Part shown: one piece after another, positions 210-36,497 of the stretch
How the letters are laid out: the number at the start of each line of letters is the position of its first letter
Numbering within the stretch: the first letter of the stretch is position 1
Origin: Gemmatimonadota bacterium
Lineage (GTDB): Bacteria > Gemmatimonadota > Gemmatimonadetes > Gemmatimonadales > Gemmatimonadaceae
Length of the DNA: 42,224 nt
Assembly (NCBI GenBank): GCA_947471365.1
Contig: CANIWQ010000010.1
Coordinates: 1 to 42,224 of the forward strand
Direction of reading: 5' to 3'
The notes under the pieces: generated by a model
Database searches by the model: none
What the model saw: the letters and a program-made list of their open reading frames with translations, nothing else
What the model was told of the DNA's origin: nothing
Translations under genes and position numbers: made by a program

Positions 210-2468
210 CTAGGGCGATCGTGTTTCGCGCAGCACGGTGAGCGAATAGGGTGGCACGACGATCGTCTCCCCCGCGCGCCGGGTGCTCGTGCGAGGCGGC
301 AGGCTTTTCGACGGACGTCCCTTGGTGCCGTCGGCATGCCAGGCGTATTCGGCGTCCGAGTATGAGAGCACGGTTCGCGGTCCGTTCGCTCGACCGCCAA
401 ACGCGGCGCCAAAATCAAGTGTCACGCGAAAGGCGCGGTCCGGATCCTTGTTCACGAGCATGGTCGACCACGTCCCATCCGGGCGGTGCACAACGTAGGC
501 GGAAAGGAGTTCGTTGTCGTCGCTGTCGTGAACGTCGCTCTCCGCGGCGAACATCGTATGGTCGCCTCCGCTCGGCGTTACCCATTCGCGCATCATCAAC
601 TGCGCGCCGTAATAGGTAGCCACGCGTGCGCGGATGCGACGCTGGTCGTCAGTGAGGAAGAGCAGGTTGTTGCCCCACTGATGGCAGCGCGCGCTTTTGT
701 CGAGTGACGTGGGCTCCCATCCATACAGGTAGGCTTCGCGTCCGCCGAGGCTGAGAAAGCGGCCGACGATATCGGCGTTGAGCAGTGCCCCCGCGAGTTC
801 TACCTGCGATTGTCCCGCGAACGCCGAGTAGCCGTATTCGGCGATGATGCGCGGAATGTTCGCGGGGAGTCCGTCGTGTTCAATCCGCTGTAAGCGATCG
901 GTGATCCGTTCGGATGCGGCCGCGAGTTGCGGCGCGGAGGTGCCGCAGATGTCGTCGTACGGATACCACTCAAACGAAAAGAAGGTAAAATCGCCGGGGC
1001 GTCCGCGTTGCGCGAGCGATGCCAGAAAGCGCGGAATCCACGTTTCGCTTGCGCTGTCGCCAGCGCTGTCGGCGGGCCACGCGAACATCACGCGGCTCTC
1101 GAGTCCTTGAAAGCCAGGCCCGCCGAGTGGTGCCGTGGGCCAGTGGGCGCGAATGGCGCGTGCGACCTGCGCATACAGCGTTGCGTAGTCTTCGGGGGTC
1201 ACGTACTGCCCGTCGGGCTCCTCGCCCATCTCAATGCGTCCCACGGCGTAGCCGCGTCGGCGCAGAAAGCGAATTTCCGCCGCCGCGTCCTCGGGTGTGC
1301 CGTAGAGCACGGGCACGGGGATCATCGCCGGACGCCCGAAGGTGAGCCCGCTCCTGAAGACGCGATCGAAGCCCGGCTGTTCAAGTTCGACGTCGATGTC
1401 TGTGGCGCGGTGCCAGGGATCGGTGCTGGAGGCGTACGTCGTAGATTGGCGGTGTGAATCGGCGCCGTGTCGCACGGCATCGCGCAGCGTGCGGCCCTCG
1501 AGGGTGCCGATCTCGATTTCTCGAATCGCGTAGCCCGCGGAGTCACGCGGATCAGTGACGGGGAGGGCGACGCGCGCGGTACCGCGCGGTGTGTCTGACG
1601 TAGCGCTCGAGTACGCGCTCGTGTACGCGCTCGCGGTGAGCACGAGCCGCACGAAGCGTGCGCTCACCGGCGTGTCGGCAAGGCGGCGCAGTGCCGTGCC
1701 GCCGCGGCCCTCGCGTTCGGTGCCGTTGGCGAAGGTGACCCAACGTCCTGGGGGGTGCTCGTCGACATCGTGCACGTTCTCGCCGCGCCAATACTGCACG
1801 CGAAACGCCGAGGCGTGCGGTGCGCCCCAGTGAATGCGCATGGCATCCACGGGGAGTGGGCGACCCAAGTCCACAATCACCCACTGTGGGAGCAACGAGT
1901 CCGCGGTGCCGGTGAAGCGGTGGTCGAGGTACGGGTTGCTCTTCCAAAACGAGACCGTGTCGCCGTCGTCGAGGCGAGAGAAGCCGGCGTTGTCGATTTC
2001 GTCGGTGGTTCCGCGTCGCGGCAGTCGATAGCCGTGCGTCAGGAGAATCGGCGCGGTGGACGAATCGTCGGACAGCCAATAGCCGCGCTGGTGCGCCGCA
2101 TCGCTCCAGCGTCCACGTGGATTCCAGTGCCAGCTCTGAACGCCAAGCTCTGTGCGCAGGCGGACGGTGGCCATGGCGACGCCGACGGTTTGCATGGCGG
2201 CGATGTTCGCGCGCGTGAAGACGAGCGGCACGACGCCTTTGCCGTGGCCGTCGAGTCCGCCGCCGAAGGTGGAGCGCGGGTCAAAGCGGTTCACGGCGGT
2301 GCGTTCGGTGTGCACCGTCACAACGGCGTCGGCGATTGGCGCGGTGGCGCGCGTCCGCGCGTCCGGCGTTGGCTGGCGCGTCGCGCGCGTCGCGCGTTGC
2401 GCGGGTGCGACGGCAGCGTGCGCGAACAGGCACAGCACGAACGCCATGACGGTCGCGCGCCGATTCAC
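210..2468 (-). CDS. Secreted glycoside-hydrolase-like protein with discoidin (F5/8 type C) domain
   Basis: A protein of 752 residues from a GTG start that overlaps the upstream stop as GTGA; an ATG at 2447 inside the signal peptide is the alternative. Residues 1-24 look like a signal peptide (NRR, hydrophobic core, APAQ). Residues about 165-325 resemble a discoidin/F5/8 type C carbohydrate-binding fold (QWVIVDLGRPLPVDAMRIHWG, later ARFVRLVLTAS). The C-terminal half resembles a clan-A TIM barrel: RIEMGEEPDG near residue 417 fits an acid/base glutamate, and IIAEYG near 544 fits a nucleophile, with GGPGF and FSFEWYPYDD between them. It probably acts on polysaccharide outside the cytoplasm. Family and substrate cannot be fixed from the sequence. 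Translation is probably coupled to the DUF4337 gene in front. Confidence 0.72.
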   Translation of the reverse strand: MNRRATVMAFVLCLFAHAAVAPAQRATRATRQPTPDARTRATAPIADAVVTVHTERTAVNRFDPRSTFGGGLDGHGKGVVPLVFTRANIAAMQTVGVAMATVRLRTELGVQSWHWNPRGRWSDAAHQRGYWLSDDSSTAPILLTHGYRLPRRGTTDEIDNAGFSRLDDGDTVSFWKSNPYLDHRFTGTADSLLPQWVIVDLGRPLPVDAMRIHWGAPHASAFRVQYWRGENVHDVDEHPPGRWVTFANGTEREGRGGTALRRLADTPVSARFVRLVLTASAYTSAYSSATSDTPRGTARVALPVTDPRDSAGYAIREIEIGTLEGRTLRDAVRHGADSHRQSTTYASSTDPWHRATDIDVELEQPGFDRVFRSGLTFGRPAMIPVPVLYGTPEDAAAEIRFLRRRGYAVGRIEMGEEPDGQYVTPEDYATLYAQVARAIRAHWPTAPLGGPGFQGLESRVMFAWPADSAGDSASETWIPRFLASLAQRGRPGDFTFFSFEWYPYDDICGTSAPQLAAASERITDRLQRIEHDGLPANIPRIIAEYGYSAFAGQSQVELAGALLNADIVGRFLSLGGREAYLYGWEPTSLDKSARCHQWGNNLLFLTDDQRRIRARVATYYGAQLMMREWVTPSGGDHTMFAAESDVHDSDDNELLSAYVVHRPDGTWSTMLVNKDPDRAFRVTLDFGAAFGGRANGPRTVLSYSDAEYAWHADGTKGRPSKSLPPRTSTRRAGETIVVPPYSLTVLRETRSP

Positions 2469-3076
2469 GAGAGGCGCCGCGCCAGGAGGTCCGAATGGAG
2501 GTGCCAGCCCAACAGTCCGGCGAGCCCCATCAGCACACCAAAGCCGGTGGGAATCAGCGCCTCCCAGTACAGCCATCGCGTGCGGGTGAGAATGGTGACC
2601 GCCAGCATCGAGATGGCAATGGCGCACAGCGCGTCGGATAAGTCGAATTGGTCGTCGCGGTAGTTCAACGCGTCGTACGTGTTTTGATCGTCCTCGGCCT
2701 GCTTGCGCACGACGTCCTTCTTGTCTTTCTGGTCTTGGACGAGCGCCTCGTACTTGGCGATCGCGTCTGCGTAATCGGCCCGCTGTGTCGCAGGGGCGAC
2801 GGCGGCCGAGAGCCGGAGCTGCGTGGCCGTGGCATTGGCGATTTCTTCGCGAATGTTGCGTGCCTGATAAAACGACCAGTGATCGATTTTGTCGGCCTGC
2901 GCCTGTTGCATGCCTTGCACGATGTTGTCGTCTTTGACTTTACAGACGCCGAGGAACGTGGCGAGCAATGCGACGGTGATGGCCACGCGGCTGCCCAGTC
3001 GCGCGGCGTCGCGGTCACTGGTCGCCGCGTGTGCGTCGGTGGCGGTCTGCGCCGATTCCAAGGGGTCGATTTCCAT
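2465..3076 (-). CDS. DUF4337-like membrane protein
   Basis: 203 residues. The start is taken at the ATG at 3076 because further upstream the frame runs into a pentanucleotide repeat. There is one membrane segment at about 30-47 (VAITVALLATFLGV) and two near the C-terminus (about 150-165 and 170-192). Between them is a charged helical region with a coiled-coil look (KYEALVQDQKDKKDVVRKQAEDDQ). The pattern KVKDDNIVQGMQQAQADKID...W.FYQARNIRE matches my memory of DUF4337 proteins, whose role is unknown. The gene ends in a GTGA overlap with the glycoside-hydrolase-like gene, so the two probably share a transcript. Confidence 0.75.
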   Translation of the reverse strand: MEIDPLESAQTATDAHAATSDRDAARLGSRVAITVALLATFLGVCKVKDDNIVQGMQQAQADKIDHWSFYQARNIREEIANATATQLRLSAAVAPATQRADYADAIAKYEALVQDQKDKKDVVRKQAEDDQNTYDALNYRDDQFDLSDALCAIAISMLAVTILTRTRWLYWEALIPTGFGVLMGLAGLLGWHLHSDLLARRLS

Positions 3077-3130
3077 AGGCTCAATATTAGCGCGAAGTGG
3101 CCGGAGTCGCCTGCAGGGAGTAGGATTCCA

Positions 3131-3220
3131 CGGTACCGCACGGTACCGCACGACACGACACGACACGACACGACACGACACGACACGACACGACACGGCA
3201 CGGCGCGGTGCGGTCCGGTG
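3131..3220. repeat. Pentanucleotide tandem repeat between divergent genes
   Basis: Two copies of CGGTACCGCA are followed by nine uninterrupted CGACA units (3151-3195) and then degenerate 5-mers (CGGCA, CGGCG, CGGTG, CGGTC, CGGTG). It fills most of the gap between the minus-strand DUF4337 gene and the plus-strand hydrolase gene, where the promoters of both are expected. A 5-bp unit can change length by slippage, altering promoter spacing. If the hydrolase were read from a start upstream of 3256, length changes would also shift its frame. Confidence 0.9.
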
Positions 3221-3255
3221 GTCACCACTTCATCCTGCGTGTGAGGCATTTTGCA

Positions 3256-10528: not shown

Positions 10529-11317
10529 TCAACCCGTCGCGTGGCGTCGGCGCGCGCCGTACAGGGCGAGCAGGACGGCTAGGCCAGCGGCAATCCATGC
10601 TGCCGTGATCACGAGGCCCGCATTGGGAAGCCCGTGCGGTCCGGACTGCCGTTGGGCAATGCCGATGAAGGCCCACGTGAGCACGAGCGGAAAGGCGATT
10701 TCGCCATGCCGATGCGCCATGGCCGCACCAATCGCGGAGGCGGTACCGAGGAGTAGTACGGTCCAGAGTTGTGGCGCCAAGCCCCAGCCGCTCCAACCGA
10801 TGAAGAAGAGTACGTCGGCCGCGTTTGCGATGGTCGCGACGGAAATCCAGCCGAGGTACAGGCCAAAGGGAATGTCCACACACCAACGTTCCGCGCGCGT
10901 CACCGCGACGTGCCCCACGCCGAGCCGGCGGTAACACACGATCAGTGTGATCAGAAGCGCGGTCATCACGGCAAGGCTCAGCGCAAACTGATTGTAGTGC
11001 CAGCAAAAGAGCCAGGCGGCATTGAGCCCATTGCTGAGTGCGAACCAGAGGCCGAGTCGCACGAGGCGCGGCGACTGCCGCTGTGCGGTGGTCGCTTGGA
11101 ACAGGGCGAAGGCGAGCCAGCCGATATAGATCACGCCCCAAATCGAAAAGACGTAACCCGCCGGCACGAAGTAAATCTGAAATCGATCCGAAATCTGGCC
11201 GGTGTTTTGGCCATTAAATGGAATGATGTTCGCGAGGGCGTTGACGGTGATCGCCGCGAGCACCGACACGATCGTGATCCAAGGACGCCACGCATCCGGG
11301 ACTCGGGAGTTAAGCAT
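10529..11317 (-). CDS. TspO/MBR-like tryptophan-rich membrane protein
   Basis: 262 residues with about seven to eight hydrophobic segments and many Trp. The motif FVPAGYVFSIWGVIYIGW is typical of the larger bacterial relatives of TspO (peripheral benzodiazepine receptor family), which are longer than the classic five-helix, 160-residue TspO. Family members bind tetrapyrroles or act as sensors, but for this long subfamily the ligand is unknown. The ATG shares one base with the stop of the hybrid kinase in front (TGATG), indicating coupled translation and perhaps a joint role. Confidence 0.82.
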   Translation of the reverse strand: MLNSRVPDAWRPWITIVSVLAAITVNALANIIPFNGQNTGQISDRFQIYFVPAGYVFSIWGVIYIGWLAFALFQATTAQRQSPRLVRLGLWFALSNGLNAAWLFCWHYNQFALSLAVMTALLITLIVCYRRLGVGHVAVTRAERWCVDIPFGLYLGWISVATIANAADVLFFIGWSGWGLAPQLWTVLLLGTASAIGAAMAHRHGEIAFPLVLTWAFIGIAQRQSGPHGLPNAGLVITAAWIAAGLAVLLALYGARRRHATG

Positions 11318-13680
11318 CAGGAACGGTGTGGGTCGAGGGTGGCAAGGACGCGAGTCAGTGACTCGCGGCTGATGGGTTTGGTAATGTAATCGTTCATGCC
11401 AGCGTCGAGGCAGCGTTCACGATCACCGTCCATCGCGTTGGCGGTCATCGCCACGATCGGACGGGTGGCGTCGGCGCCGCCGCGCAGGCGGATGCGGCGC
11501 GTGGCCTCCAGGCCGTCGAGGCGCGGCATCTGCATGTCCATGAAAATCACATCAAATTCGCGCTTCGCCGATTGCTCCACGGCGTCGATGCCATCGCCCG
11601 CGATGTCGACGTCGCAGCCCAGCTGTTCGAGCATCTTGCCCGCCACCATCTGGTTGATCGGGTTGTCTTCGACGAGCAGAATCTGAAGGCGCGCGGGCGC
11701 ATCGAGGGTGTCGTCCGCGATGACCAGTGACGGGTGCGCACGCAGCATGGGCGAGCCCGTGGACTCGACGAGCGAGTGCCGCGTGATGAGCGGTGCCTCG
11801 CGCGAGCGATCACTGGGAAGCGCGAGCGTGATCTCCAGCGTGCCCTTGAGTGTGTCGGGGCGCAATGGCTTGGTGAGATACGCGTCGAATCCGGCGCGCT
11901 GGAACCGTTCGGCATCGCCGCGCGTCGGCGCCGACGTGGCGATGACGAGCGGCATGCGGAATAGATCGGGATCGGTGCGCACGGCGCGGCCAAGTGTTTC
12001 ACCGTCCATGAATGGCATCCGGTTGTCGATGACGGCCACACGGAATGCGTCGTCGGCCACCGCCGCCGCGCGTAACAGCGCGAGCGCGGCGTTCCCGTCC
12101 GACGCCGACTCCACGCGCATCCCCCACGCGCGCATCCATTCGCGCATGACGTGTACGTTGAGCTCGACGTCGTCCACGACGAGTGCGCGCACACCGGGAA
12201 GCGCCGCGCCTTGCGGCGGCTGCGGCGGTGGGTTCGGGTCCTCCGGTAGCGGGAGCGTGAACCAGAAGGTCGAGCCGACTCCTTCGGTGCTGCGCACCCC
12301 GATCTCGCCGCCCATGAGTTCGACGAGCCGCCGGCTGATGGAGAGCCCGAGTCCGGTTCCCCCAAAGCGGCGCGTGGTGCTCGCGTCCGCCTGCACAAAC
12401 GGCTCAAAGAGCGTGCCGATGGTGGCGTCCGAAATGCCGATGCCGGAGTCTCTCACTTCGAATCGCAGCTGCGTGGGGCTGCGGCCGGCAACGAGCTCCA
12501 CGCCAACAACAATCTGCCCCGTGTCGGTAAACTTCACCGCGTTGCCGAGCAAGTTGAGCAGCACCTGCCGAATGCGCCCGGGATCGCCGATCACCCGTCG
12601 AGGCGCGTCCGGCGCCAAGCGCAGCACAGTCTTGAGCCCCTTCTCCATGGCGCGCGGCACAAGCAACTCGGCGACGTCGGCCACGGCGGCGTGCACATCA
12701 AACGGAATGGGTTCGATGGCGAGCTTGCCCGCTTCGACTTTGGAGAAGTCGAGAATGTCGTTGATCACCTCAAGCAACAACTGCGCCGCGCGTCGCGTGG
12801 CTTCGGTGTACTCGGCTTGTTCAGCTGAGAGGTCGGTGCCGGTGAGCAAGCTGGTCATGCCGAGGATTCCATTCATCGGCGTGCGAATCTCGTGCGACAT
12901 CATCGCGAGGAAATCGCTCTTGGCGCGCACGGCCGCCTCGGCGTGATCTTTGGCAGCGACGAGTCCGAGTTCGTGAATCTTGCGGTGCGTGATGTCGGTG
13001 AGCACCGCGACGGTGTGTTCGAACTCGCCGCTGTCGCTGAAGACGGGGTTGGCCAGCAACTGGAACCATCGCGGGGTGCCGTCGGGGTGCGTGAAGGCGA
13101 TCTCTTGATCAAACGCCTCGTGACGTTCCGTGGCGTGGCGCCACGAGCGGGCCACCGCGTCGGTGGCGCCGATCTCTGGGAGGAGTGCCGGTGTGGAGAG
13201 CCCGAGTGCGGCGGCGCCGTCGATGCCGGTCATCACGGTGAGTGCGGGGTTCACCCAGTCAATCCGTTCGTCGGCGTCGGTGAGGAAGACGCCGCTGGTG
13301 GTGCGCTGGGCAACGAGGGCGAGGCGCCGCATCTGTTCGGTGTCTCGGTCGTTGCACATCAACACAAAACCGAACGTGAGGACAATGACACTCACGTAGA
13401 ACGTCAAAAACGAGGCGTCCTGAATGGCGCCCGGTTCAAAAATGGCGGCGTTCGCGGTGGTGGTGGTGACACCCGCGACTGCTGCGTAGTACACGGCGCG
13501 TACGCTGAGCACGGTGCCGCACGCCAGGAAGGCGCGGCCGGTAAACCGGTGACTCGCGGGTCGCGCGCGCGCGCCGCCGCTCAAGAGCACGTCACTCGAC
13601 TGCAACATGGCGGCGGCGGTGCAGACGGCGATCGCGCTGGTGCGGGCGGCGACGTTGTCGGAAGACATCGTCCAGTACAC
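11317..13680 (-). CDS. Hybrid sensor histidine kinase (main part, downstream of an amber codon)
   Basis: 787 residues from the GTG at 13680. Order of parts: remaining membrane helices (about 15-110), PAS (about 120-235, GVFLTDADERIDWVNPALTVMTGI), HisKA with His263 in MMSHEIRTPMNG, HATPase (N box LLNLLGNAVKF, GIGIS, GGTGLGLSI), receiver 1 (VVDD near its start, VIDNRMPFMDG, TKPL) and receiver 2 (VEDN, FMDMQMPRLDG, TKPI). The same frame continues upstream through TAG at 13717-13719 into a 95-residue membrane segment, so an original protein of about 895 residues is split. All catalytic residues I can see are intact, so the soluble part could still work if made by readthrough or reinitiation. Confidence 0.92.
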   Translation of the reverse strand: MYWTMSSDNVAARTSAIAVCTAAAMLQSSDVLLSGGARARPASHRFTGRAFLACGTVLSVRAVYYAAVAGVTTTTANAAIFEPGAIQDASFLTFYVSVIVLTFGFVLMCNDRDTEQMRRLALVAQRTTSGVFLTDADERIDWVNPALTVMTGIDGAAALGLSTPALLPEIGATDAVARSWRHATERHEAFDQEIAFTHPDGTPRWFQLLANPVFSDSGEFEHTVAVLTDITHRKIHELGLVAAKDHAEAAVRAKSDFLAMMSHEIRTPMNGILGMTSLLTGTDLSAEQAEYTEATRRAAQLLLEVINDILDFSKVEAGKLAIEPIPFDVHAAVADVAELLVPRAMEKGLKTVLRLAPDAPRRVIGDPGRIRQVLLNLLGNAVKFTDTGQIVVGVELVAGRSPTQLRFEVRDSGIGISDATIGTLFEPFVQADASTTRRFGGTGLGLSISRRLVELMGGEIGVRSTEGVGSTFWFTLPLPEDPNPPPQPPQGAALPGVRALVVDDVELNVHVMREWMRAWGMRVESASDGNAALALLRAAAVADDAFRVAVIDNRMPFMDGETLGRAVRTDPDLFRMPLVIATSAPTRGDAERFQRAGFDAYLTKPLRPDTLKGTLEITLALPSDRSREAPLITRHSLVESTGSPMLRAHPSLVIADDTLDAPARLQILLVEDNPINQMVAGKMLEQLGCDVDIAGDGIDAVEQSAKREFDVIFMDMQMPRLDGLEATRRIRLRGGADATRPIVAMTANAMDGDRERCLDAGMNDYITKPISRESLTRVLATLDPHRS

Positions 13681-13716
13681 GGTGGCGACCAGATCGAGCG
13701 CGGCGGGCAGATAGAT

Positions 13717-13719
13717 CTA
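13717..13719 (-). other. In-frame amber (TAG) codon interrupting the hybrid kinase
   Basis: The plus strand reads CTA at 13717-13719, which is TAG on the coding strand. The distance from the start of the upstream fragment (14004) to the GTG of the main part (13680) is 324 bases, a multiple of three, with no other stop between. It is a single nonsense codon rather than a frameshift. Confidence 0.9.
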
Positions 13720-14004
13720 GGCCAGGGGCGCCGGTCGCTCGGTGAATTCGCGGAGCGCGTGGTGGTACATCGTCAGCGAAATGACGAGGAGCGTCTGGGC
13801 GAGTACAACCGACGCGAGGTCTGGTATGACGCCCCGCATGCCGAGGAGAATCCACCCCACGGCCTGCGCGAGCGTGGCCCAGGCCCAGCGATGCATCCCG
13901 TTCATCTGCCGTGAATACGCACGCGACACGCCGAAGAGCGCGATGCTCATCAACAACGCGCCCATGGCGTTGAAGAAGACGACGGTGCGCGGATCGAGGT
14001 TCAC
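13717..14004 (-). CDS. N-terminal membrane fragment of the split hybrid kinase
   Basis: 95 residues from a GTG start, with three hydrophobic segments (VVFFNAMGALLMSIALFGVS, WAWATLAQAVGWILLGM, LASVVLAQTLLVISLTMY). It ends at TAG immediately after PAPLA. The codons after the stop (IYLPAALDLVATVYW...) continue the hydrophobic pattern in the same frame straight into the hybrid kinase, 13 codons before its first GTG. It is therefore the front of the kinase's integral-membrane sensor region rather than a separate gene. A point mutation (for example from CAG or TGG), a sequencing error, or genuine amber readthrough could each explain it. Confidence 0.8.
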   Translation of the reverse strand: MNLDPRTVVFFNAMGALLMSIALFGVSRAYSRQMNGMHRWAWATLAQAVGWILLGMRGVIPDLASVVLAQTLLVISLTMYHHALREFTERPAPLA

Positions 14005-14058
14005 GGGGGATGGGAAGGTAGAGACGACGACAACAACAACTATTACTACAGTATTGAC

Positions 14059-16389
14059 CTACAAGGCAGTATGCAGTGCGTAACTGAATTTGACGAACCA
14101 GCCGTCAGCCGATCGGCGCAGATGCTGAAAGGCGAGCGGGTCGCTTTCGGTGAGGGTGTTCCCGTATCCGCCGAACACCACCGTGCCCGGCGCGGGACGA
14201 TACGAGAGGAGGAAATCCGCGCGAAGGTTGTTGGTGCTGCGGGCCGTCGACGGCTGATAGCTGCCGTCACTGCTCTTGAGCAGGAGCGTTCGCCCCGTGG
14301 TCGGGTCGGCCAGCGGTTGGCGGACCGTCGCTTCATACTGCGCAATGAGGCGCACGAGGAGGTAGCGGGAGAGCTGATACTCGGTCTTGAGGCGTGGAAT
14401 GCGCGTCGTGGCAGAGCGTGACCCGTCGCGTTTGCGGGTGAAGCTGGAGCTGACGTACGTCGCGGTGAGGCGGAGTCGGTCGTCTGGGCGAAGGTCGAGC
14501 GAGGCGGTATAGTCGTGCCGCGTGACGTCGCCCGCTTCCAGGAAATCGATGTCGGAGCCGGTGGTGGTGCCGAGTGTGCCGGCGAAGCGCGAGAACTGCG
14601 GGGTGGAGAGGGTGGCGTTCACCAGCGTGGCCTGCTGGCGACCCAGCGGCACGTAGGCCCGTGGCACGCCAGCGGAGTTCGACGTGCGATAGCCCGCATA
14701 TGCCGCGGAATCGAAGGCATACGTTGCCACGGTTGGTGTAAAGCCCACCGTCCAGCCGCCGCGGAGTGTGAATGAACTGTTGGCATTCGCCAAATCTTCC
14801 AGCACCGAGCGCCCGTGAAAGAAATCATCGTATTTCCAGGTTCCGCTCAGCTGCCCGTACAGATTGTAGCGCTCAAGCCAGCTGCCACTCGCGCCGAAGG
14901 CGGTAAAGCGATTCATCACGGACACCTTGGTGATGCCGGTGCGACTCACGAACCCGTTGTCGGTCTGAAAATCGGGATGGATGCCAATCACGGCGTAGTG
15001 AAAGCCGAAGCTGCGTCCGGTGCGGTCAATCACGGCTTCCCACATGGGGCCGGAGCGCGACGTGCCGGCGTTACTCGTGCTGCTGGTGACCGCCTGCAGC
15101 TGTGCATAATACAGGCGGCCGAATACGTGACGCATGTCGGCACCCATAATACGGTTGGTACGGCCGCCGCCGACCCGCTCGCTGTAGAGTAATCCCGCCG
15201 TGGACTGCGCTCCAAACCCCTGCTGAATGCGCACGATGTCGATCATGGGCCGCGCACCGTTCGATGCCGAAGCGCTTTGATCGAGAGCGGAGAGCACGGC
15301 CACGTCCGTGCGTCCAATCTTGCCGGTGAGCTTCACCGCCGCATCCGGCCGCACGATGCGGCGCGTGTACACCAGGGTGTTCGGCACATTGAACTGCTCG
15401 CTGCCTTCCACGAAAAACGGTCGTTTTTCGGCGTAGAAGAGCGCGAAGCGTTCGTCCGTTGCGATCTGCGCGGCGTCAGACTCGACCTGCGAAAAATCAG
15501 GCTTGATCGTGCCGTTGAGCACGAAGTTGCTTCCGACGCCCCATCGAATGTTGCCGCCGAGCTGCGGTTTGGAGCTGTAGCCCCAGCCCTGACCATAGGT
15601 GCCGCTCGCGGCGCCAGCGATGCTGTTGGTGAGCTCAGGAATGAACTCGATTTGCTGACCGTGCTGCAGGCCGGTCATGCCGGTGAGTTCGCCGGCCTGA
15701 GAAACGAAGCTCGCGCTCCCACGAAGCGCGGGGGTCCACGTTTCTTCGTACCCGGAGTGCTGCACGTGTCGGTTAATCTGCATGCCCCATTTCTGGGTAC
15801 CGACCACGGGATAGCGGAGGCTGCTGAAGGGAATGCGCACTTCGACTTCGTAGCCCCAGTCGGTGATGTGCCCCTTGGATTCCCAGCGGAAGTCGGCGCT
15901 GAGATCATTCATTCCGGGCATCACGTTGGAGCCGGGAATAAACCCGCCCCCTTCGTTCTTGGTGCCGTCGGCCTGTACGCCCAGCGGGTTCACAATGAAC
16001 ACGAACGCGCGACGCCGCTCGTGAAAGGTGTCGAGGTGGATTTCAATGTTGTCATCGTTCGACACGCGATCACGATCGGCGAGGGTCGCGCGCACCGCGC
16101 CGTGCGTTTCGAAGGCTCGGATGCCGAAGTGAATGGCCGTCGGCGAATACCAGACGAGCACTTCGGTGGAGTCGGGGGCGGGACGCCCGTCTACCGGCTG
16201 GTAGAGCGAGAAGCCAGTCAGGAGTGCCGCCGAACGCCAGACGGGCTCGTCAAGATGACCGTCGATGGTGACGGTGGCATCGGACGCCGTCGGGCGGGCG
16301 CTGGTCTGGCCGTTGCGCGCGTGGTACACGGGGCCGGCGCTGGGGGCGGCAGCGGCCAGCTGGAATGCCATGAGAACGGGAAGAAGCAT
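14059..16389 (-). CDS. DUF5916/CBM9-domain outer-membrane beta-barrel protein
   Basis: 776 residues. A short signal peptide (MLLPVLMAFQLAAAAP) is followed by a CBM9-like domain at about 35-220 (VTIDGHLDEPVWRSAALLTGF, RDRVSNDDNIEIHLDTFHERRRAFVFIVNPLGVQADG, WGYEVEVRIPFSSLRYP). A long C-terminal region of alternating beta strands fits the DUF5916 barrel (FSQVESDAAQIATDERFALFYAEKRPFFVEGSEQF is the family hallmark). The C-terminal SYALHTAL end is compatible with an outer-membrane barrel. Members are common in Bacteroidota, Gemmatimonadota and related phyla; their substrate is not established. It stands alone on its strand. Confidence 0.9.
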   Translation of the reverse strand: MLLPVLMAFQLAAAAPSAGPVYHARNGQTSARPTASDATVTIDGHLDEPVWRSAALLTGFSLYQPVDGRPAPDSTEVLVWYSPTAIHFGIRAFETHGAVRATLADRDRVSNDDNIEIHLDTFHERRRAFVFIVNPLGVQADGTKNEGGGFIPGSNVMPGMNDLSADFRWESKGHITDWGYEVEVRIPFSSLRYPVVGTQKWGMQINRHVQHSGYEETWTPALRGSASFVSQAGELTGMTGLQHGQQIEFIPELTNSIAGAASGTYGQGWGYSSKPQLGGNIRWGVGSNFVLNGTIKPDFSQVESDAAQIATDERFALFYAEKRPFFVEGSEQFNVPNTLVYTRRIVRPDAAVKLTGKIGRTDVAVLSALDQSASASNGARPMIDIVRIQQGFGAQSTAGLLYSERVGGGRTNRIMGADMRHVFGRLYYAQLQAVTSSTSNAGTSRSGPMWEAVIDRTGRSFGFHYAVIGIHPDFQTDNGFVSRTGITKVSVMNRFTAFGASGSWLERYNLYGQLSGTWKYDDFFHGRSVLEDLANANSSFTLRGGWTVGFTPTVATYAFDSAAYAGYRTSNSAGVPRAYVPLGRQQATLVNATLSTPQFSRFAGTLGTTTGSDIDFLEAGDVTRHDYTASLDLRPDDRLRLTATYVSSSFTRKRDGSRSATTRIPRLKTEYQLSRYLLVRLIAQYEATVRQPLADPTTGRTLLLKSSDGSYQPSTARSTNNLRADFLLSYRPAPGTVVFGGYGNTLTESDPLAFQHLRRSADGWFVKFSYALHTAL

Positions 16390-17623: not shown

Positions 17624-18256
17624 TCAGCGCGTCTGCCGCGATTGCACGTGGCGCAAGCGGAGTTGCTCCTCGCGCTCCCGTTCTTCGAGCTGCCGCCGCA
17701 CGCCCGCAATCGCCTCGGTGAGTTGCGGCGCCACTCGTTGTTCGAGTGTGCGCAGGCGCCGTGTGGTGTCGGCCAGTGCTTCGCCGAGTCGCCGTACGCG
17801 TTGTTCCTTGGGAGCGGCCTCCACGAGCAGTTCGGTGAGCGCTTCATACGCGGCGGCGGCCTCCGCAGTGGAGGGGCCCGTCAGCGCAGGGGCCAGACCG
17901 CGCGCATCCATCGTGCGGCGGAACGTTGGCGCGTTGATCACGTCGCTGACGGCAATCCCCCACACCTGCGCGGGTCGCAGTTCTATAGATGGCTCGCTGA
18001 GCGGCCACGCGGCCGCGGTGAGCCCTGCCACTCCATGTGCACTGATCGCGTGGGTGAGCGCGGTGGCGGCGCGCGTGGTGGAGGTCGCGATGCGCTGCCG
18101 CACGTCGATGGCCGGCCGGGCCGCCGCAAAGAGTTCACTGACCAAGGCCTCCCGTTTGCGCCGCGTGAGCTCAATGCCCTTGACGATACGCGTGAGCTCG
18201 CGGCGCGCGCGGAGGAGGTTCATGCGCGTGGGCGCGAGGCGGGTGCGGCCGTTCAT
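17624..18256 (-). CDS. atpD: V/A-type ATPase subunit D (central stalk)
   Basis: 210 residues. The N-terminus LAPTRMNLLRARRELTRIVKGIELTRRKREALVSE is the signature of subunit D, the long coiled-coil rotor shaft inside the A3B3 head. The second long helix is at the C-terminus (EQRVRRLGEALADTTRRLRTLEQRVAPQLTEAI, then REREEQLRLRHVQ). Last gene of the operon, joined to atpB by ATGA. Length is normal for the family. Confidence 0.93.
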   Translation of the reverse strand: MNGRTRLAPTRMNLLRARRELTRIVKGIELTRRKREALVSELFAAARPAIDVRQRIATSTTRAATALTHAISAHGVAGLTAAAWPLSEPSIELRPAQVWGIAVSDVINAPTFRRTMDARGLAPALTGPSTAEAAAAYEALTELLVEAAPKEQRVRRLGEALADTTRRLRTLEQRVAPQLTEAIAGVRRQLEEREREEQLRLRHVQSRQTR

Positions 18257-19641
18257 CGCGAGGCTTCGTGCGCGGCGAGCGTCGCGGCGAGCGTCGCGGC
18301 GCTGAGTCTGGTGAGATCATCGCTCGGGAGCGTGTGCAACAGCGTCCAGCCGGCGGCGAACGTTTCGTCGATCGTGCGCCGTCCGCTCTGGTTGATAAAC
18401 GTCTGCTCAAACGCCTCGGCAAAGGCCAGCGCTCGCCGGTCGCCGGCCGGCAAGCCACTTTCGCCGACGATCGCGGCCATGGAACGCGCTTCGCGTCCGC
18501 GCGCGTAGCTCGCGTACAGTTGATCGCTCCATTCGCGATGCTCGGGGCGCGTCCGACCCTCGCCGATACCGCCGCTCATCAAGCGAGAGAGCGATGGGAG
18601 TACATCGATGGGCGGGGTCACACCGCGGCGGTGCAACTCGCGGCTCAACACGATCTGCCCTTCGGTGATGTAGCCCGTGAGGTCGGGAATGGGATGCGTG
18701 ACATCGTCGTCGGGCATCGTGAGAATCGGAATCTGCGTAATCGATCCCGGTTTGCCCTGAATGATTCCCGCGCGCTCATACAGCGACGCGAGGTCGGTGT
18801 ACATATAGCCGGGATAGCCGCGCCGCCCCGGAATCTCCTCGCGTGCGGTGGCAATCTCTCGGAGTGCTTCGCAATAGTGCGTCATGTCGGCGATCACCAC
18901 GAGCACATGCAGGCCGCATTCGTATGCGAGATGCTCGGCGGCGGTGAGCGCGAGCCGAGGCGCATGAAGCCGCTCCACCGCCGGATGCGACGCTTGGTTC
19001 AGATAGAGCACCGTGCGCGGCAGTGCACCGCTTGCGCGGACACGATCCAGAAAGTCGCGCGTCTCACGCGCCGTGATACCCACGGCGGCAAACACCACGG
19101 CGAATGGTTCGTGACGCGGGGCGCGTGCCCATTCCACAATGCGCGCGGCAATCTCGAGCCCTGGCAGCCCTGGCCCGCTGAAGATCGGAAGCTTCTGGCC
19201 GCGCACGAGGGTGTTCATGGCATCAATCGCACTGATGCCGGTTTCAATAAAGTCGCGTGGCCGTGCGCGCCGCACGGGGTTGATGGGTGCACCGTCAATG
19301 GGACGAAGCGCTTCGCCAATCGGTGCCGGGAGTCCGTCAACGGGCGCACCGTGACCGTCAAAGGCGCGGCCGAGCAGTTCGCGCCCCACGACCGTGGTGG
19401 CGACCTCGCCGGTCAGAATGATTTCCGCGCGATCCGGTGCGAGGCCGACGGTATCATCGAGGAGCTGTACGACCGTCGCGTGCTCGCCAGCATCAATCAC
19501 CTGTCCGCGGCGGTCAGCGATTCCGGTTTGCCGCACCACGACCCATTCGCCGAGCGACACCGCGCGGGTGCGCTCCAAAAAGAGCAGGGGGCCACCGGCG
19601 GCGGCGGCGCCGTGATGCGTGACGTCGAGGCGCGGACTCAT
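18253..19641 (-). CDS. atpB: V/A-type ATPase subunit B (non-catalytic)
   Basis: 462 residues, the regular length. It shows the B-subunit pattern: the beta-barrel start, a GRAFDGHGAPVDG region, IETGISAIDAMNTLVRGQKLPIFSGPGLPG where catalytic subunits carry a P-loop, the ADMTHYCEALREIATAREEIPGRRGYPGYMYTDLA stretch and SLSRLMSGGIGEGRTRPEH near the C-terminus. It alternates with subunit A in the hexameric head. It overlaps atpA by ATGA. Confidence 0.96.
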   Translation of the reverse strand: MSPRLDVTHHGAAAAGGPLLFLERTRAVSLGEWVVVRQTGIADRRGQVIDAGEHATVVQLLDDTVGLAPDRAEIILTGEVATTVVGRELLGRAFDGHGAPVDGLPAPIGEALRPIDGAPINPVRRARPRDFIETGISAIDAMNTLVRGQKLPIFSGPGLPGLEIAARIVEWARAPRHEPFAVVFAAVGITARETRDFLDRVRASGALPRTVLYLNQASHPAVERLHAPRLALTAAEHLAYECGLHVLVVIADMTHYCEALREIATAREEIPGRRGYPGYMYTDLASLYERAGIIQGKPGSITQIPILTMPDDDVTHPIPDLTGYITEGQIVLSRELHRRGVTPPIDVLPSLSRLMSGGIGEGRTRPEHREWSDQLYASYARGREARSMAAIVGESGLPAGDRRALAFAEAFEQTFINQSGRRTIDETFAAGWTLLHTLPSDDLTRLSAATLAATLAAHEASR

Positions 19642-21308
19642 GGGGTCACTCCATCGCGTTGCGCCGCGAGCGCGCGGCGCGTGGGCGCGAGATCGAGCTC
19701 GGCAAAGGCGGTACCGGAAGCGAGGGCGCGCTCGCCGTCGCGGAACGCTTCGAGGGCGGCGTGCGCGAGCGCGTAGGTTTGTGGTGGCGAGCTAATGGCG
19801 TCGTGTGGATGATAGGCGTTCTGTCGGAGCACCACTTCGCGCACCATTGCGGCAATGTCCATCACCAAATGATCGTGATCTTCGAGCGCATCGGGACCCA
19901 CGAGGCTCGCGATGTCGCGTAGCTCGCGCTCCTTTTGCAACAACGCGAGAAGGTCGGCACGTACCGCAGACCAGTGCTCCCCGCCATGCGTGGTGAACCA
20001 GGGCGCGACCTGATCGGCGTAGAGCGAGAAACTGCTTTCCCAATCGACCGCTGGATAGTGCCGCTGGTGCGCCAGTGCTGCGTCGAGCGCCCACATCGAG
20101 CCAGTGACGCGCAACGCGGCCTGCGTGACCGGCTCAGAAAAATCGCCGCCGGGTGGAGATATGGCGCCGATGATCGTCACGGCGCCCTCGCGCGTGGGGG
20201 CGCCGAGCGGACGCACACGGCCGGCGCGTTCGAAAAATTGACCGAGTCGGCTCGCGAGATAGGTGGGATAGCCTTCTTCTCCTGGCATCTCCTGTTGTCG
20301 TGCCGCCATTTCGCGCAGCGCTTCGGCCCAGCGCGACGTGGAGTCAATCATCAATGCCACGCGATTGCCTTGATCGCGGAAATATTCTGCGATCGTGACG
20401 CCCATGTAGATCGACGCCTCGCGCGCAGCCACGGGCATGTTCGAGGTGTTCACGATCAGCACGGCGCGGTCCATCACGGGACGTCCGGTGCGTGGATCGA
20501 CGAGCAGCGGAAACTCCGTGAGCACGTCCGTCATCTCGTTGCCGCGTTCGCCGCAGCCGACGTACACCACCACGTCGGCTTCCGAAAACTTGGCCAGCGA
20601 TTGCTCAATAATTGTCTTGCCCGTGCCAAAGCCGCCGGGGACGGCCGCGCTCCCCCCTTCCGCCACTGGAAAGAAGAGGTCGAACACGCGTTGCCCCGTG
20701 ACGAACGGACGTGACGAGGCAAACCGTTCGGCCACCGGCCGCGGAATGCGGACCGGCCAGCGGTGGGCGAGACGGAGCGTGGTGCCGTCGGTGAGAGCGC
20801 CGATAGGTGTGGTCACCGTGTACGTGCCGCTGTCAATTGCTGCGATCACACCGTGGACGCCTGGCGGAACGAGTACGCGATGCGTGATGGCGCGCTCTAC
20901 CACGGTGCCGAGTTCGTCGCCGGGTTCCACCGGATCGCCCACCGCGCGGGTCGCGGTAAACGCCCACTGCTGCTCGGCGTCGAGTGTGTCGGCGCGCGCG
21001 CCGGGGGCAATGAAGTCGCCGGTGGCTTCCGCGACTCGTTCCAGCGGCCGGCCAATGCCGTCGAGCACCGCTCCGAGGAGTCCGGGGCCGAGTTGCGCGG
21101 TGAGCGACACGCCGGTGTGCTCCACCGGTTCGCCAACGGCGAGCCCCGTCGTGGACTCATACACCTGCAACGTGCACACATCGCCACGCTGTTTGATAAT
21201 TTCGCCAAGCAGCCGACGCGTGCCCACGAACGCAAGCTCGTACAGCGCGCCATGAAGCGGTGCGGCCTCCACGAGCGAGCCGGCGACGCGAATGATGCGG
21301 GCGGTCAC
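19638..21308 (-). CDS. atpA: V/A-type ATPase catalytic subunit A
   Basis: 556 residues from a GTG overlapping the stop of atpF (GTGA); the canonical N-terminus (ARIIRVAGSLVEA) supports it. The P-loop is GGFGTGKT at about 225-232, followed by the VVYVGCGERGNEM motif, the MIDSTSRWAEALREMA motif and EEGYPTYLASRLGQFFERAGRV. The non-homologous insert characteristic of A subunits is present (about 110-190, with VPPGVHGVI). It hydrolyses or makes ATP in the soluble head. All expected catalytic elements are visible. Confidence 0.96.
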   Translation of the reverse strand: MTARIIRVAGSLVEAAPLHGALYELAFVGTRRLLGEIIKQRGDVCTLQVYESTTGLAVGEPVEHTGVSLTAQLGPGLLGAVLDGIGRPLERVAEATGDFIAPGARADTLDAEQQWAFTATRAVGDPVEPGDELGTVVERAITHRVLVPPGVHGVIAAIDSGTYTVTTPIGALTDGTTLRLAHRWPVRIPRPVAERFASSRPFVTGQRVFDLFFPVAEGGSAAVPGGFGTGKTIIEQSLAKFSEADVVVYVGCGERGNEMTDVLTEFPLLVDPRTGRPVMDRAVLIVNTSNMPVAAREASIYMGVTIAEYFRDQGNRVALMIDSTSRWAEALREMAARQQEMPGEEGYPTYLASRLGQFFERAGRVRPLGAPTREGAVTIIGAISPPGGDFSEPVTQAALRVTGSMWALDAALAHQRHYPAVDWESSFSLYADQVAPWFTTHGGEHWSAVRADLLALLQKERELRDIASLVGPDALEDHDHLVMDIAAMVREVVLRQNAYHPHDAISSPPQTYALAHAALEAFRDGERALASGTAFAELDLAPTRRALAAQRDGVTP

Positions 21309-21634
21309 TGGAGCCTCACACGGTAGCCAATCGCCCGTCGGAGCAACTCGAGGATATACTCCTCCGCACCGGACGGAGCGCCGGCCCACGCGGGCGCTGG
21401 AATTGGCACAAGAATGGGTACGGCACGCCGTTCGACATCGCGCCGCACGGTCTCCGGCACTGCGTCGAGCAACGCCTGCTCCACAAGCAGAATGCCCGTG
21501 TGGGGGAGCGCCGCGAGTCGCTGCAGGTGGGTGCCTGCATCCTCCGTCTTGGCGACTTCATCGACCGAAAGCCCCGACAGCCGAAAACCGGCCGCGCTGG
21601 CGGCCGACGCGAGGACGCGCACCGTGTAACTCAC
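21305..21634 (-). CDS. atpF: V/A-type ATPase subunit F
   Basis: 109 residues from a GTG that overlaps the stop of atpC (GTGA). Motifs fit the small Rossmann-like subunit F bound to the central stalk: FRLSGLSVDEV, GILLVEQALLDAVPETVRRDVERRAVPILVPIP, and a C-terminal helix EEYILELLRRAIGYRVRL. It lies between C and A as in Thermus-type operons. Confidence 0.88.
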   Translation of the reverse strand: MSYTVRVLASAASAAGFRLSGLSVDEVAKTEDAGTHLQRLAALPHTGILLVEQALLDAVPETVRRDVERRAVPILVPIPAPAWAGAPSGAEEYILELLRRAIGYRVRLQ

Positions 21635-22641
21635 GCGGCAACTCCGAGTGCGCCGGCGATGACGGCCGGAGGCACATGCATCGCGACGCTCCACGTGACG
21701 CGCATCAGTGCCTGCAGCTCGATGCGTTGCCGAAGGACGAAATGGACCACAGGCGCGAGACTCAACGGCGCGGTGCGTGCGAGCGCTCGGAACTCCTGCT
21801 CGAGCGCGCGCAAGGCGGCGTCTTCGGCTGAGCGACTCGTGGCGTTGAGCGCCGCTGCGAGCGGCGTGTGCGCGACGCGTGCGCCGAGCCGTTCCGCCAT
21901 GTCGAAGCGACTGCCCGCCGTCTGCGCGGCGGCAAGATCGTCGACACAAAGCACCGTGCCGCCGGGCACAAAAACATGTGCCGGGTCGAGGTCCGCGTGT
22001 TGGTCCGCGAGGATGAGCACCGACCACAGGTTCTCGATGTCGATCATGCGCTCGACGAACCGTCGCATGGCGGCGTCGCCTCCTGCCGTGATCTGAGCCC
22101 GTGTGGCGAACACGCGCGTGAGTGCCACTTCCAGCCGGAATAGGTCGAGATGCTGTCGTTGCGCTTCTTCGGCCACGGCGGTCGCAAACGGATGGTGCCA
22201 CGTCAACAGGTGCGCACCGACGGTCGCGACATCGCCCGCAGTCGCGAGCTGTTGCAGCGCGCGGAGCGGAAGCGACGTCGTGGGGATGAGACCCGCGAGT
22301 CGCGATTCAGGCGTGGCGCCGGCCACCGCACCGCGGACCAAGGTGCGCACACTGCGGCGATCTTCGTCGTCGAGGAGTGGTGCCAGTTGTTCCACGCGCT
22401 CGCCGGCCCAGCTCGCGAGCACGCGAAGTCGCGCCGCCGCACGGCGTCGGACATTCTCCTCTAGCGAGGCCGCATCATAGGGCACGCCAGTGGCGGGCGC
22501 ATGCACGATGCCAAGCGTCGATAACTGCGCGCCGAGGGCGCCAATGCCCTGTGCATCGCAAAGCGCGCGAACCTGTTCGTCGCGCAAGAGATGCGACGCG
22601 AGACCGCGGGTGCGTGTGATGACGTCGCCCCAGTCGGTCAT
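21631..22641 (-). CDS. atpC: V/A-type ATPase subunit C (AC39-like)
   Basis: 336 residues, nearly all helical, with a TRTRGLASHLL start and VERMIDIENLWSVLILAD in the middle, as in the funnel-shaped C/AC39/d subunit that links the central stalk to the rotor ring. It starts at an ATG overlapping the stop of atpE (ATGA). Sequence conservation in this family is low, so the call rests largely on operon position, helical content and these motifs. Confidence 0.88.
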   Translation of the reverse strand: MTDWGDVITRTRGLASHLLRDEQVRALCDAQGIGALGAQLSTLGIVHAPATGVPYDAASLEENVRRRAAARLRVLASWAGERVEQLAPLLDDEDRRSVRTLVRGAVAGATPESRLAGLIPTTSLPLRALQQLATAGDVATVGAHLLTWHHPFATAVAEEAQRQHLDLFRLEVALTRVFATRAQITAGGDAAMRRFVERMIDIENLWSVLILADQHADLDPAHVFVPGGTVLCVDDLAAAQTAGSRFDMAERLGARVAHTPLAAALNATSRSAEDAALRALEQEFRALARTAPLSLAPVVHFVLRQRIELQALMRVTWSVAMHVPPAVIAGALGVAA

Positions 22642-30920: not shown

Positions 30921-31211
30921 ATGTGCCTCGGCATTCCTGGCAAGATCATCGAAATGCGCGACGATAACGGACTCGTGATGGGTGTTGTCGACTTTGGCGG
31001 CGTGCGCCGAGAGTGCTGCTTGGCGTATGTGCAAGACGATGTGACGCTCGGCGACTACGTCATTGTGCACGTGGGCTTTGCCATCACGAAGGTGGACGAG
31101 GCCGAGGCGCAGCGCACGTTCGAAGTGCTCAAGGAAATGGGGGAGACGCAGGAACTCGAGTGGTTGGCGGAGGTTGCCGATAACTCGCTGGCGGCCGGTA
31201 ACGACGCATGA
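30921..31211 (+). CDS. hypC: Hydrogenase maturation chaperone HypC
   Basis: 96 residues with AGGAGG eight bases before the ATG. The N-terminus [12 protein letters not shown] has the essential Cys2 of the family, which binds the Fe(CN)2CO unit with HypD and also the large-subunit precursor. [15 protein letters not shown] and [11 protein letters not shown] complete the OB-fold pattern. The C-terminal helix is a little longer than usual. It overlaps hypD by ATGA and opens the hydrogenase cassette. Confidence 0.97.
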
Positions 31212-32320
31212 AGTTCTTGAGCGAGTATCGGGATGCGCAGATTGCCAAGGCGGTGATTGAACGCATCAAGGCCGAAGCCACGCAGCGTTGGTGTCTGATG
31301 GAGGTGTGCGGCGGTCAGACGCACACGATCGTGCGGCAGGGGATCGACGAGTTGCTCGAAGACGCCATCGAGATGATTCATGGGCCAGGTTGCCCGGTGT
31401 GTGTGACGCCGCTCGAACAGATCGACAAGGCGCTGCTCATTGCGGCGCGCCCCGAGGTGCTGTTCACCTCGTTCGGTGACATGCTGCGCGTTCCCGGCAG
31501 CGACTGCGACCTGCAACAGGTGCGCGCGCGGGGCGGCGATGTGCGCATTGTGTATTCGCCGCTCGATGCACTGGCGCTCGCCCAGCGCAATCCCACCAAA
31601 GAGGTGGTGTTCTTCGCGGTCGGCTTTGAGACGACCGCGCCCGCCAACGCGATGGCCGTGTGGCGCGCGCGCGAGCTCGGGGTCAAGAACTTTAGTGTGC
31701 TCGTCTCGCACGTCACGGTGCCGCCGGCCATCACGGCCATCATGGAAGCACCGGACAATCGCGTGCAGGGCTTTCTCGCCGCGGGGCATGTGTGTGCGGT
31801 GATGGGCTGGACCGAGTACGAACCGCTCGCTGCCAAGTATCAGGTGCCCATCGTGGTGACCGGTTTTGAGCCGGTGGACATTCTCGAGGGGATGTTGCTC
31901 GTGGTGCGTCAGCTGGAAGCCGGGCGTCACGAAGTAGAGAATCAGTATGTGCGTTCGGTGCGCCGCGAGGGCACGCCCGCGGCACGCGTGACCGTGGACC
32001 GCGTGTTCGAGTTGGGGAACCGCAAGTGGCGCGGCATTGGCGAAATCCCCATGAGTGGACTCAAGCTCCGTGACGAGTTTGCTGCGTTTGATGCCGAAGT
32101 GAAATTCGGCGTGCAGGATCTCACCGTGGAGGAACCCGCTGAGTGCCGCGCGGGTGACGTACTGACGGGCCGGCTCAAGCCACCCAAATGCTCCGCCTTT
32201 GGCACGCGTTGCACACCCGAGCATCCGCTGGGCGCGCTGATGGTGTCCGCAGAGGGCGCGTGCGCGGCATACTACCACATTGGGCGGTATCGCCCGGAAG
32301 CCACGGGAGCGGCGACGTGA
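31208..32320 (+). CDS. hypD: Hydrogenase maturation protein HypD
   Basis: 370 residues. The iron-binding motif [16 protein letters not shown], the [10 protein letters not shown] motif, [25 protein letters not shown] and [14 protein letters not shown] are all present. C-terminal cysteines [39 protein letters not shown] carry the [4Fe-4S] cluster. With HypC it builds the Fe(CN)2CO moiety of the [NiFe] site in the cytoplasm. It overlaps both hypC (ATGA) and hypE (GTGA). Confidence 0.97.
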
Positions 32321-33637: not shown

Positions 33638-34783
33638 ATGCTTTCACCTAGTGCACATTCTTGGATCGAGGGGGAAACCCTCGGTGAGCACCTCGAAGAA
33701 CATGGGGTCTCTCGGCGCGATTTCTTAGAATATTGCGCGGAGCTCTCGGTCGTGCTGGGCGTCGGTTCGGCGCTCGCGCCGAAGATGGCGCATGCGATTG
33801 AAGTGCAGAAGCGTCCAACGGTCATCTGGCTGCAGCTGCAGGAATGTACGGGATGCGTGGAGAGTGTGATTCGCACGGAGAATCCCTCGATCGGCGATCT
33901 CTTGCTCGACGTAATCTCGCTCGACTATCAACACACGCTGATGGCCGGTGCCGGCACGGCGGTGGAGAAGGTGAAGGCCGCGTCGATGGCGGCGAATAAA
34001 GGGAAATACCTTCTCATCGTCACGGGCTCCATCCCGACGAATAACGACGACATGTACGTGATGATCGGCGGCAAGACCGCGCGCTCGGTGCTGGAGGAGG
34101 CTGCCGAAGGATGCGCCGCCATTCTCGCGCTCGGTGCCTGTGCGTTCTGGGGTGGCATTCAGGGCGCACGACCGAACCCAACCGGTGCGGTTGGCGTGCG
34201 CGACATCATCAAGAACAAGCCGATCGTGAACCTGCCGGGCTGCCCGCCCATTGGCGACACGGTTACGGCAACGGTCGTGCACTATCTCACCTTCGGCGCG
34301 CTGCCGGAAGTGGATCGCGAAGGGCGTCCGTTGTTCGCGTACGGCGAACGCATTCACGATCAGTGCTCGCGACGCGCCCACTTCGACGCCGGCCAGTTTG
34401 TGGAGACGTTCGACGATAAAGGCGCCCGCGAGGGGTGGTGCCTGTATCAGGTCGGGTGCAAAGGCCCGGCGACCTTCTCGCCTTGCCCGATTTTCAAGTG
34501 GAACAACCGCACGAGTTGGCCGATCGAAGCGGGCCATCCGTGTCTCGGTTGCACCGAACCGCATTTCTGGGACACGATGACGCCGTTCTACGGCCGTCTG
34601 CCGGATGTGGCGGGCTTTGGAATCGAAAAGCGGGTGGACACCATCGGTGCGTCGCTCGCGATTGGCGCCGCCGCCGGCGTCGCCGCGCACGCGACGATGA
34701 CCGTGATGCATCAGATCAAACGCCGCCGTGCCACCGACCAGGTGCCGGAAGCCCACGAGAATGCCGGAGAGAACAATGGCTAA
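33638..34783 (+). CDS. hupS: Uptake [NiFe]-hydrogenase small subunit
   Basis: 381 residues from the ATG at 33638, preceded by GAGGAGGT at a spacing of 7. Tat signal: SRRDFLEYC, then AELSVVLGVGSALAPKMAHA. The FeS ligands are recognisable: ECTGC, GACAFWGG, LPGCPP, the HDQC/WCLYQVGC region and SPCPIFKWNNRTSWPIEAGHPCLGC. The two additional cysteines of O2-tolerant enzymes (CTCC and WGC) are Gly here. A C-terminal hydrophobic helix (about TIGASLAIGAAAGVAAHATMTV) followed by KRRR would anchor it to the membrane next to cytochrome b. A 217-base gap before it may hold a second promoter. It overlaps hupL by eight bases. Confidence 0.96.
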   Translation: MLSPSAHSWIEGETLGEHLEEHGVSRRDFLEYCAELSVVLGVGSALAPKMAHAIEVQKRPTVIWLQLQECTGCVESVIRTENPSIGDLLLDVISLDYQHTLMAGAGTAVEKVKAASMAANKGKYLLIVTGSIPTNNDDMYVMIGGKTARSVLEEAAEGCAAILALGACAFWGGIQGARPNPTGAVGVRDIIKNKPIVNLPGCPPIGDTVTATVVHYLTFGALPEVDREGRPLFAYGERIHDQCSRRAHFDAGQFVETFDDKGAREGWCLYQVGCKGPATFSPCPIFKWNNRTSWPIEAGHPCLGCTEPHFWDTMTPFYGRLPDVAGFGIEKRVDTIGASLAIGAAAGVAAHATMTVMHQIKRRRATDQVPEAHENAGENNG

Positions 34784-36497
34784 GACCAAACTGGTCGTCG
34801 ATCCGATCACCCGTATTGAGGGACATCTGCGCATTGAGGCGCAGTCCGAGAACGGGAAGATCTCGCAAGCGTGGGCGAGCGCCACGCAGTTCCGTGGGAT
34901 TGAGCTGGTAGTGCAGGGGCGTGATCCGCGCGACGCGTGGGCCTTTACGCAGCGCATCTGCGGCGTTTGCACGGCGGTGCACGCCATTGCGTCGTGCCGA
35001 GCCGTGGAAGACTCCCTCGGCATCAAGATTCCGCACAATGCCAACACCATTCGCAACATGGTGCTCGGCATGCAGTACATCCAAGATCACGTGATTCACT
35101 TCTATCACCTGCACGCCCTCGACTGGGTGGACGTGGTGAGTGCGCTCTCGGCCGATCCGGCCAAGGCGGCGTCGATCGGCAAGAGCATTTCGCCCTGGCC
35201 GGGGAACGACGAGGCGCACCTCCGTGCGGTGCAGTTGCGCGTGAAGAAGTTCGTCGGCTCTGGTCAGCTCGGCATCTTTGCCGGCGGCTACTGGGGACAC
35301 CCGGCATATAAGCTTCCGCCAGAGGTCAACCTTCTCGCGGTGTCGCATTATCTCGAAGCGCTCGATTGGCAGCGTGATGTGATTCGTTTGCAGGCGATCT
35401 TCGGCGGCAAAAATCCGCATCCGAACTTCCTCGTGGGCGGCATGGCCTCGGCCATCAATCTGAGTCAGGCCACCACGATCAACGCCGAGCGCATTGCCGA
35501 CCTCGCGGGCATGATCAAGCGCGCCAAGACATTCGTCGAACAAGTGTATTGGCCCGACCTCGTGGCGATCGCCGGCTTCTACAAGGACTGGGGTTCGATC
35601 GGTGGCGGCGTGCCGAACTACTTGGCGTGCGGCGAGTTCCCCGAGACGGATGTGTATGATCTCAAGTCGCTTTACATGCCGCGCGGCATCATCCTGAACA
35701 ATGATTTGTCCAAGGTGGTGGAGTACGACCAGACGAAGGTCAAGGAATACATCCACAGCTCCTGGTACGACTACAGCAAGGGTCCGGAAGAAGGGTTGCA
35801 CCCGTATGAGGGCGAAACGAATCCCAAGTACACCGGCCCGAAGGCGCCGTGGACCGGCTACCTGCAGGACGAGAAGAAGTATTCGTGGATGAAGTCGCCG
35901 CGGTACGAGGGCAAGCCGATGCAGGTGGGGCCGCTCGCGCGCATGCTCGTGGCGTATGCCAGTGGGCACAAGGACGCCAAGGAGTTGATCGGCGAAGCGC
36001 TGAAGAAACTCAACGTGGGCCCCGCCGTGCTCTTCTCCACACTCGGCCGCACGGCAGCGCGCGGAGTCGAGGCGGTACTGTTGGCAAACAAGATGGAAGG
36101 GTGGCTTGGCGATCTCACCAGCCACATTAAGAATGGCGACCTCGCCACGTTCACCAAGGACAAGTGGGAGCCGTCGAGCTGGCCGAAGAAGTCCGAAGGC
36201 TACGGCTACGTCGAAGCCCCGCGCGGCGCCTTGGGCCACTGGGTGCAGATCGAAGACGAAAAGATCTCGCGCTATCAGTGCGTGGTACCTACGACGTGGA
36301 ATGCCTCGCCGCGTGATGCCCAGGGACAGCCCGGCCCATATGAAGCCGCGCTGCAGGACAACCATCCGCTCGTCGATCCCGACAAACCGTTGGAGATTCT
36401 CCGGACGATCCACTCGTTCGACCCGTGTCTCGCCTGCGGCGTGCACGTTCTCGATGCGGAGGGGAACGAGATCAGTTCGGTGGAGGTCAACGTATGA
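34776..36497 (+). CDS. hupL: Uptake [NiFe]-hydrogenase large subunit
   Basis: 573 residues from the ATG at 34776 with GGAGAG upstream. VVDPITRIEGHLRIE is the usual start. Nickel ligands are Cys62 and Cys65 in RICGVCTAVHA, and Cys551 and Cys554 in DPCLACGVH near the C-terminus. The 16 residues after His557 (VLDAEGNEISSVEVNV) are the tail removed by the endopeptidase once nickel is in place. The pattern FYHLHALDWVDVVSAL and NPHPNFLVGGM fit group 1 membrane-bound enzymes. It is exported with hupS through Tat and oxidises H2 on the periplasmic side. Confidence 0.97.
   Translation: MAKTKLVVDPITRIEGHLRIEAQSENGKISQAWASATQFRGIELVVQGRDPRDAWAFTQRICGVCTAVHAIASCRAVEDSLGIKIPHNANTIRNMVLGMQYIQDHVIHFYHLHALDWVDVVSALSADPAKAASIGKSISPWPGNDEAHLRAVQLRVKKFVGSGQLGIFAGGYWGHPAYKLPPEVNLLAVSHYLEALDWQRDVIRLQAIFGGKNPHPNFLVGGMASAINLSQATTINAERIADLAGMIKRAKTFVEQVYWPDLVAIAGFYKDWGSIGGGVPNYLACGEFPETDVYDLKSLYMPRGIILNNDLSKVVEYDQTKVKEYIHSSWYDYSKGPEEGLHPYEGETNPKYTGPKAPWTGYLQDEKKYSWMKSPRYEGKPMQVGPLARMLVAYASGHKDAKELIGEALKKLNVGPAVLFSTLGRTAARGVEAVLLANKMEGWLGDLTSHIKNGDLATFTKDKWEPSSWPKKSEGYGYVEAPRGALGHWVQIEDEKISRYQCVVPTTWNASPRDAQGQPGPYEAALQDNHPLVDPDKPLEILRTIHSFDPCLACGVHVLDAEGNEISSVEVNV

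Follow-up and report, generated by a model that had tools for sequence, protein, structure and literature searches.

Sequence analysis of the kinase locus

The window (the whole stretch of 42,224 nucleotides analysed here) is contig C10 of a 3.3-Mb assembly in 222 contigs (G000), which is 98.8% complete and 1.4% contaminated. On the minus strand, the reading frame that extends from a GTG at 14004 to a TGA at 11319-11317 contains a single internal stop, the TAG at 13719-13717 (codon 96), and encodes 895 residues when this codon is read through. The upstream ORF (13717-14004) ends at the TAG after 95 aa, and the next listed start past it is the GTG at 13680, which opens an ORF of 787 aa (11317-13680). 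The kinase sequence is single-copy in the genome; a mix-up of paralogues was rejected on this ground.

The domain order of the frame read through comprises a hydrophobic N-terminal part, PAS, HisKA, HATPase_c and two receiver domains, with Pfam matches to PF00512 (7.3e-21), PF02518 (3.7e-31) and PF00072 (3.7e-45, with two stretches). HisKA and HATPase_c together with receiver domains define a hybrid histidine kinase. The prediction gave about seven transmembrane helices (TM1 to TM7), with hydropathy maxima near residues 8-26, 42-63, 59-77, 92-110, 123-141, 158-176 and 199-217, and codon 96 falls at the beginning of TM4. Even when the TAG is read as a sense codon, no known N-terminal sensor domain in Pfam matches the membrane part. 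Taken as a whole, the gene is of an ordinary kind and encodes a membrane-bound hybrid histidine kinase of a Gemmatimonadaceae bacterium.

Table 1. Features of the kinase locus (positions in the window)
Feature	Position	Strand	Remarks
N-terminal 95 codons	13720..14004	-	GTG start common to orthologues; predicted helices TM1-TM3; dN/dS to sister 0.07
In-frame TAG	13717..13719	-	codon 96; TGG in sister, Leu codons in two more distant orthologues
Remaining kinase frame	11317..13716	-	TM4-TM7, PAS, HisKA, HATPase_c, two Response_reg domains; stop TGA
GTG, first possible reinitiation codon	13678..13680	-	present in sister, not in L009 or L089 (protein alignment); in-frame ATG 13668-13666 next
Membrane-protein ORF, 262 aa	10529..11317	-	ATG overlaps kinase stop by one base (TGATG; TAATG in sister)

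Comparison with orthologues

Searching 17 genomes of the same genus for orthologues of the kinase revealed a close match (90%) only in G006, and matches near 60% in G016 and G017. Contig C14 of G006 is syntenic with the window, with 87.5% nucleotide identity over 37 kb, and represents a sister species in the same genus. Searches of plasmid and phage collections yielded distant kinases only, and no match. The sister orthologue (locus L088) is open for 896 codons, and the two kinases are 90.5% identical in amino-acid sequence over the full length. They share the gene order over the window, the architecture, the GTG start and the one-base overlap with the downstream gene, whereas they differ in codon 96 (GCC-TAG-ATC in the window, GCC-TGG-ATC in the sister, TGG encoding Trp) and in the terminal stop (TGA in the window, TAA in the sister). 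Two more distant orthologues, L089 and L009, are likewise open across the site, the aligned codons being CTC and CTG (Leu). L089 aligns with the kinase unbroken and at full length (56.5% over 915 columns).

Because the sister orthologue (896 residues) and L089 both align over their whole length without a break, the ORFs on either side of the TAG are, judged from these alignments, one gene and not a chance arrangement; the earlier note's view that the frame is the same before and after the TAG was thus confirmed. With TGG in the sister and Leu codons in L089 and L009, conservation of the residue at this site is not strong, and the stop amounts to one G-to-A difference found only in the genome of the window. 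A premature stop that interrupts what is an open frame in the orthologues, including the syntenic one, is the pattern of a nonsense pseudogene.

Sequence divergence of the kinase gene

No frameshifts were found in the kinase gene and its catalytic domains score well, which bears out the earlier note's description of the remainder of the kinase as intact and without decay. Between window and sister, the whole kinase gave a dN of 0.052 and a dS of 0.597 (ratio 0.087), and the ratio was similar in its parts: 0.070 before the stop, 0.072 in TM4-TM7 and 0.088 in the rest. These values indicate purifying selection between the two species and fall inside the range of the neighbouring genes (0.02-0.26), from which two ORFs (31055-32278 and 33725-35080) were left out as evident antisense artefacts with ratios >3. 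The polarised amino-acid changes were balanced, with 17 on the window branch and 20 on the sister branch, so that neither they nor the dN/dS values gave any sign of relaxed constraint in the kinase. Most of the divergence between window and sister probably predates the stop, and for this reason what these figures show is the recency of any loss, and not continued function of the gene.

Explanation of the in-frame TAG codon

A recent single-base nonsense mutation in a recently functional kinase gene is the best reading of these data, and we consider it likely. One G-to-A transition would have converted the Trp codon TGG to TAG in the lineage of the window; G/A and C/T differences are common between window and sister (of 5018 differences, 651 are G/A in this direction). 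Ribosomes would be expected to terminate after 95 residues, i.e. after three predicted helices, and the full-length sensor kinase would not be made, save for trace natural suppression or weak internal initiation. As secondary decay is not yet seen in the rest of the gene, the stop is taken to be recent relative to the divergence of species. Like nonsense-mutated bacterial pseudogenes, the kinase gene has one premature stop of its own, whereas relatives keep the frame intact; unlike them, it shows no secondary decay so far, and loss of its protein is a prediction from the sequence.

The main rival to a recent nonsense mutation is an error of assembly or consensus, or a base from a minority strain, in which case the organism would carry a sense codon and an intact kinase; the earlier note did not name an erroneous base among its explanations. 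The TAG was found in one genome only, the assembly is fragmented, with the completeness and contamination given above, the difference concerns a single base inside an otherwise pristine gene, and the sister has TGG at this place. Against this, no further conserved gene in the 42 kb is clearly disrupted by a frameshift or nonsense codon, which suggests a low error rate. Sister ORFs mapped over the rest of the window showed no internal stops in conserved genes; the stops met elsewhere are confined to the upstream ends of ORFs that were called too long, to poorly conserved ORFs and to ORFs that overlap real genes in another frame. Moreover, the site is not a homopolymer. With TGG, the codon context reads CCTGG, a Dcm-type site (CCWGG); a Dcm-family C5-methyltransferase (TIGR00675) had no match in G000 but is present in the sister genome G006. 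Since no such gene was found in G000, neither a deamination hotspot, which was set aside, nor a methylation-linked sequencing artefact is indicated. An erroneous base is rather unlikely, and the TAG would be real in the organism.

Of the three options that the earlier note had left side by side, the comparison with relatives, which it had proposed, favours the recent nonsense mutation through the sense codon in the sister species, speaks against programmed readthrough and yielded no positive evidence for reinitiation. A start at the GTG 13680 or the ATG 13668 would give a shortened but functional kinase whose membrane part consists of TM5-TM7. The in-frame GTG follows the stop by 36 bases and the ATG four codons later by 48, the downstream domains are intact and conserved, and a product with TM5-TM7 would keep the predicted parity of the helix number, which makes function conceivable but unsupported. 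However, both codons lie at or just past the core of the predicted TM4, the start would fall inside this helix, and no evident ribosome-binding site accompanies it, a purine-rich Shine-Dalgarno-like stretch not being visible just upstream of GTG 13680. The GTG is not conserved in the two more distant orthologues, and conservation of the downstream part is mostly older than the stop and hence no proof of function afterwards. Reinitiation appears improbable.

Programmed or suppressor-mediated readthrough of the amber codon would yield the full-length kinase. It agrees with the frame being open on both sides of the TAG, and Trp or Leu at the site suggests a residue tolerant of substitution. The stop is, however, not shared by any orthologue, whereas programmed readthrough would be expected to show a stop conserved among relatives, with selection continuing behind it. 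Release factor 1 was found (TIGR00019, 465.8 bits against a cut-off of 423), and in both species other genes routinely end in TAG, e.g. the neighbouring gene 14059-16389. The search for an amber-suppressor tRNA suggested in the earlier note returned no CUA anticodon among the 43 tRNA genes found, and a suppressor was rejected on this basis; for two tRNAs at contig ends, absent from the ARAGORN list, visual inspection gave CAT and TGA anticodons. The tRNA list is incomplete, lacking tRNA-Tyr and some Thr tRNAs despite a stated completeness of 98.8% for G000, and an unassembled suppressor keeps a small probability. The in-frame TAG is what the kinase has in common with amber recoding (stop-to-sense code change, suppressor tRNA, pyrrolysine); it differs in that its TAG is not conserved, release factor 1 is present, TAG serves for termination and a CUA-anticodon tRNA was not found. 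Reported TAG readthrough in E. coli is low: as a percentage of wild type, the reporter means were 0.49 at 18 °C, 0.80 at 25 °C, 0.03 at 37 °C and 0.01 at 42 °C (PMC11126739). Other literature searches gave nothing directly relevant. Readthrough to the full-length kinase is extremely improbable. A very small probability, too, is given to an amber codon kept as a leaky switch, in which low suppression by an unassembled tRNA (e.g. a tRNA-Tyr variant) or reinitiation would provide a little full-length or shortened kinase and reset the dosage of the sensor.

Under the favoured nonsense mutation, a single base would have cost one lineage a sensor kinase, in reality or in appearance; such losses are common in bacterial genomes. 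The case would matter only if the TAG were retained and read through in strains or proteomes.

Neighbouring genes and further differences from the sister contig

The predicted membrane protein encoded by the ORF 10529-11317 matched no Pfam family above threshold. Its ORF is likely translationally coupled to the kinase gene and, because the kinase stop overlaps its ATG, the premature stop in the kinase could also lower its translation.

A GTT-rich micro-repeat ahead of the kinase start (14032-14046) makes the window 15 bases longer than the sister at this place. The stretch 2465-3250, which contains a DUF4337 gene (about 3076-2468, minus strand) and a pentanucleotide repeat (GTGTC units near 3150-3200), does not align to the syntenic sister contig, as a result of either an insertion specific to its own lineage or a deletion on the sister's side. 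At 18253-22641, the minus strand carries genes for a V/A-type ATP synthase, including two subunits of the alpha/beta family and a C/AC39 subunit; these genes are conserved in the sister.
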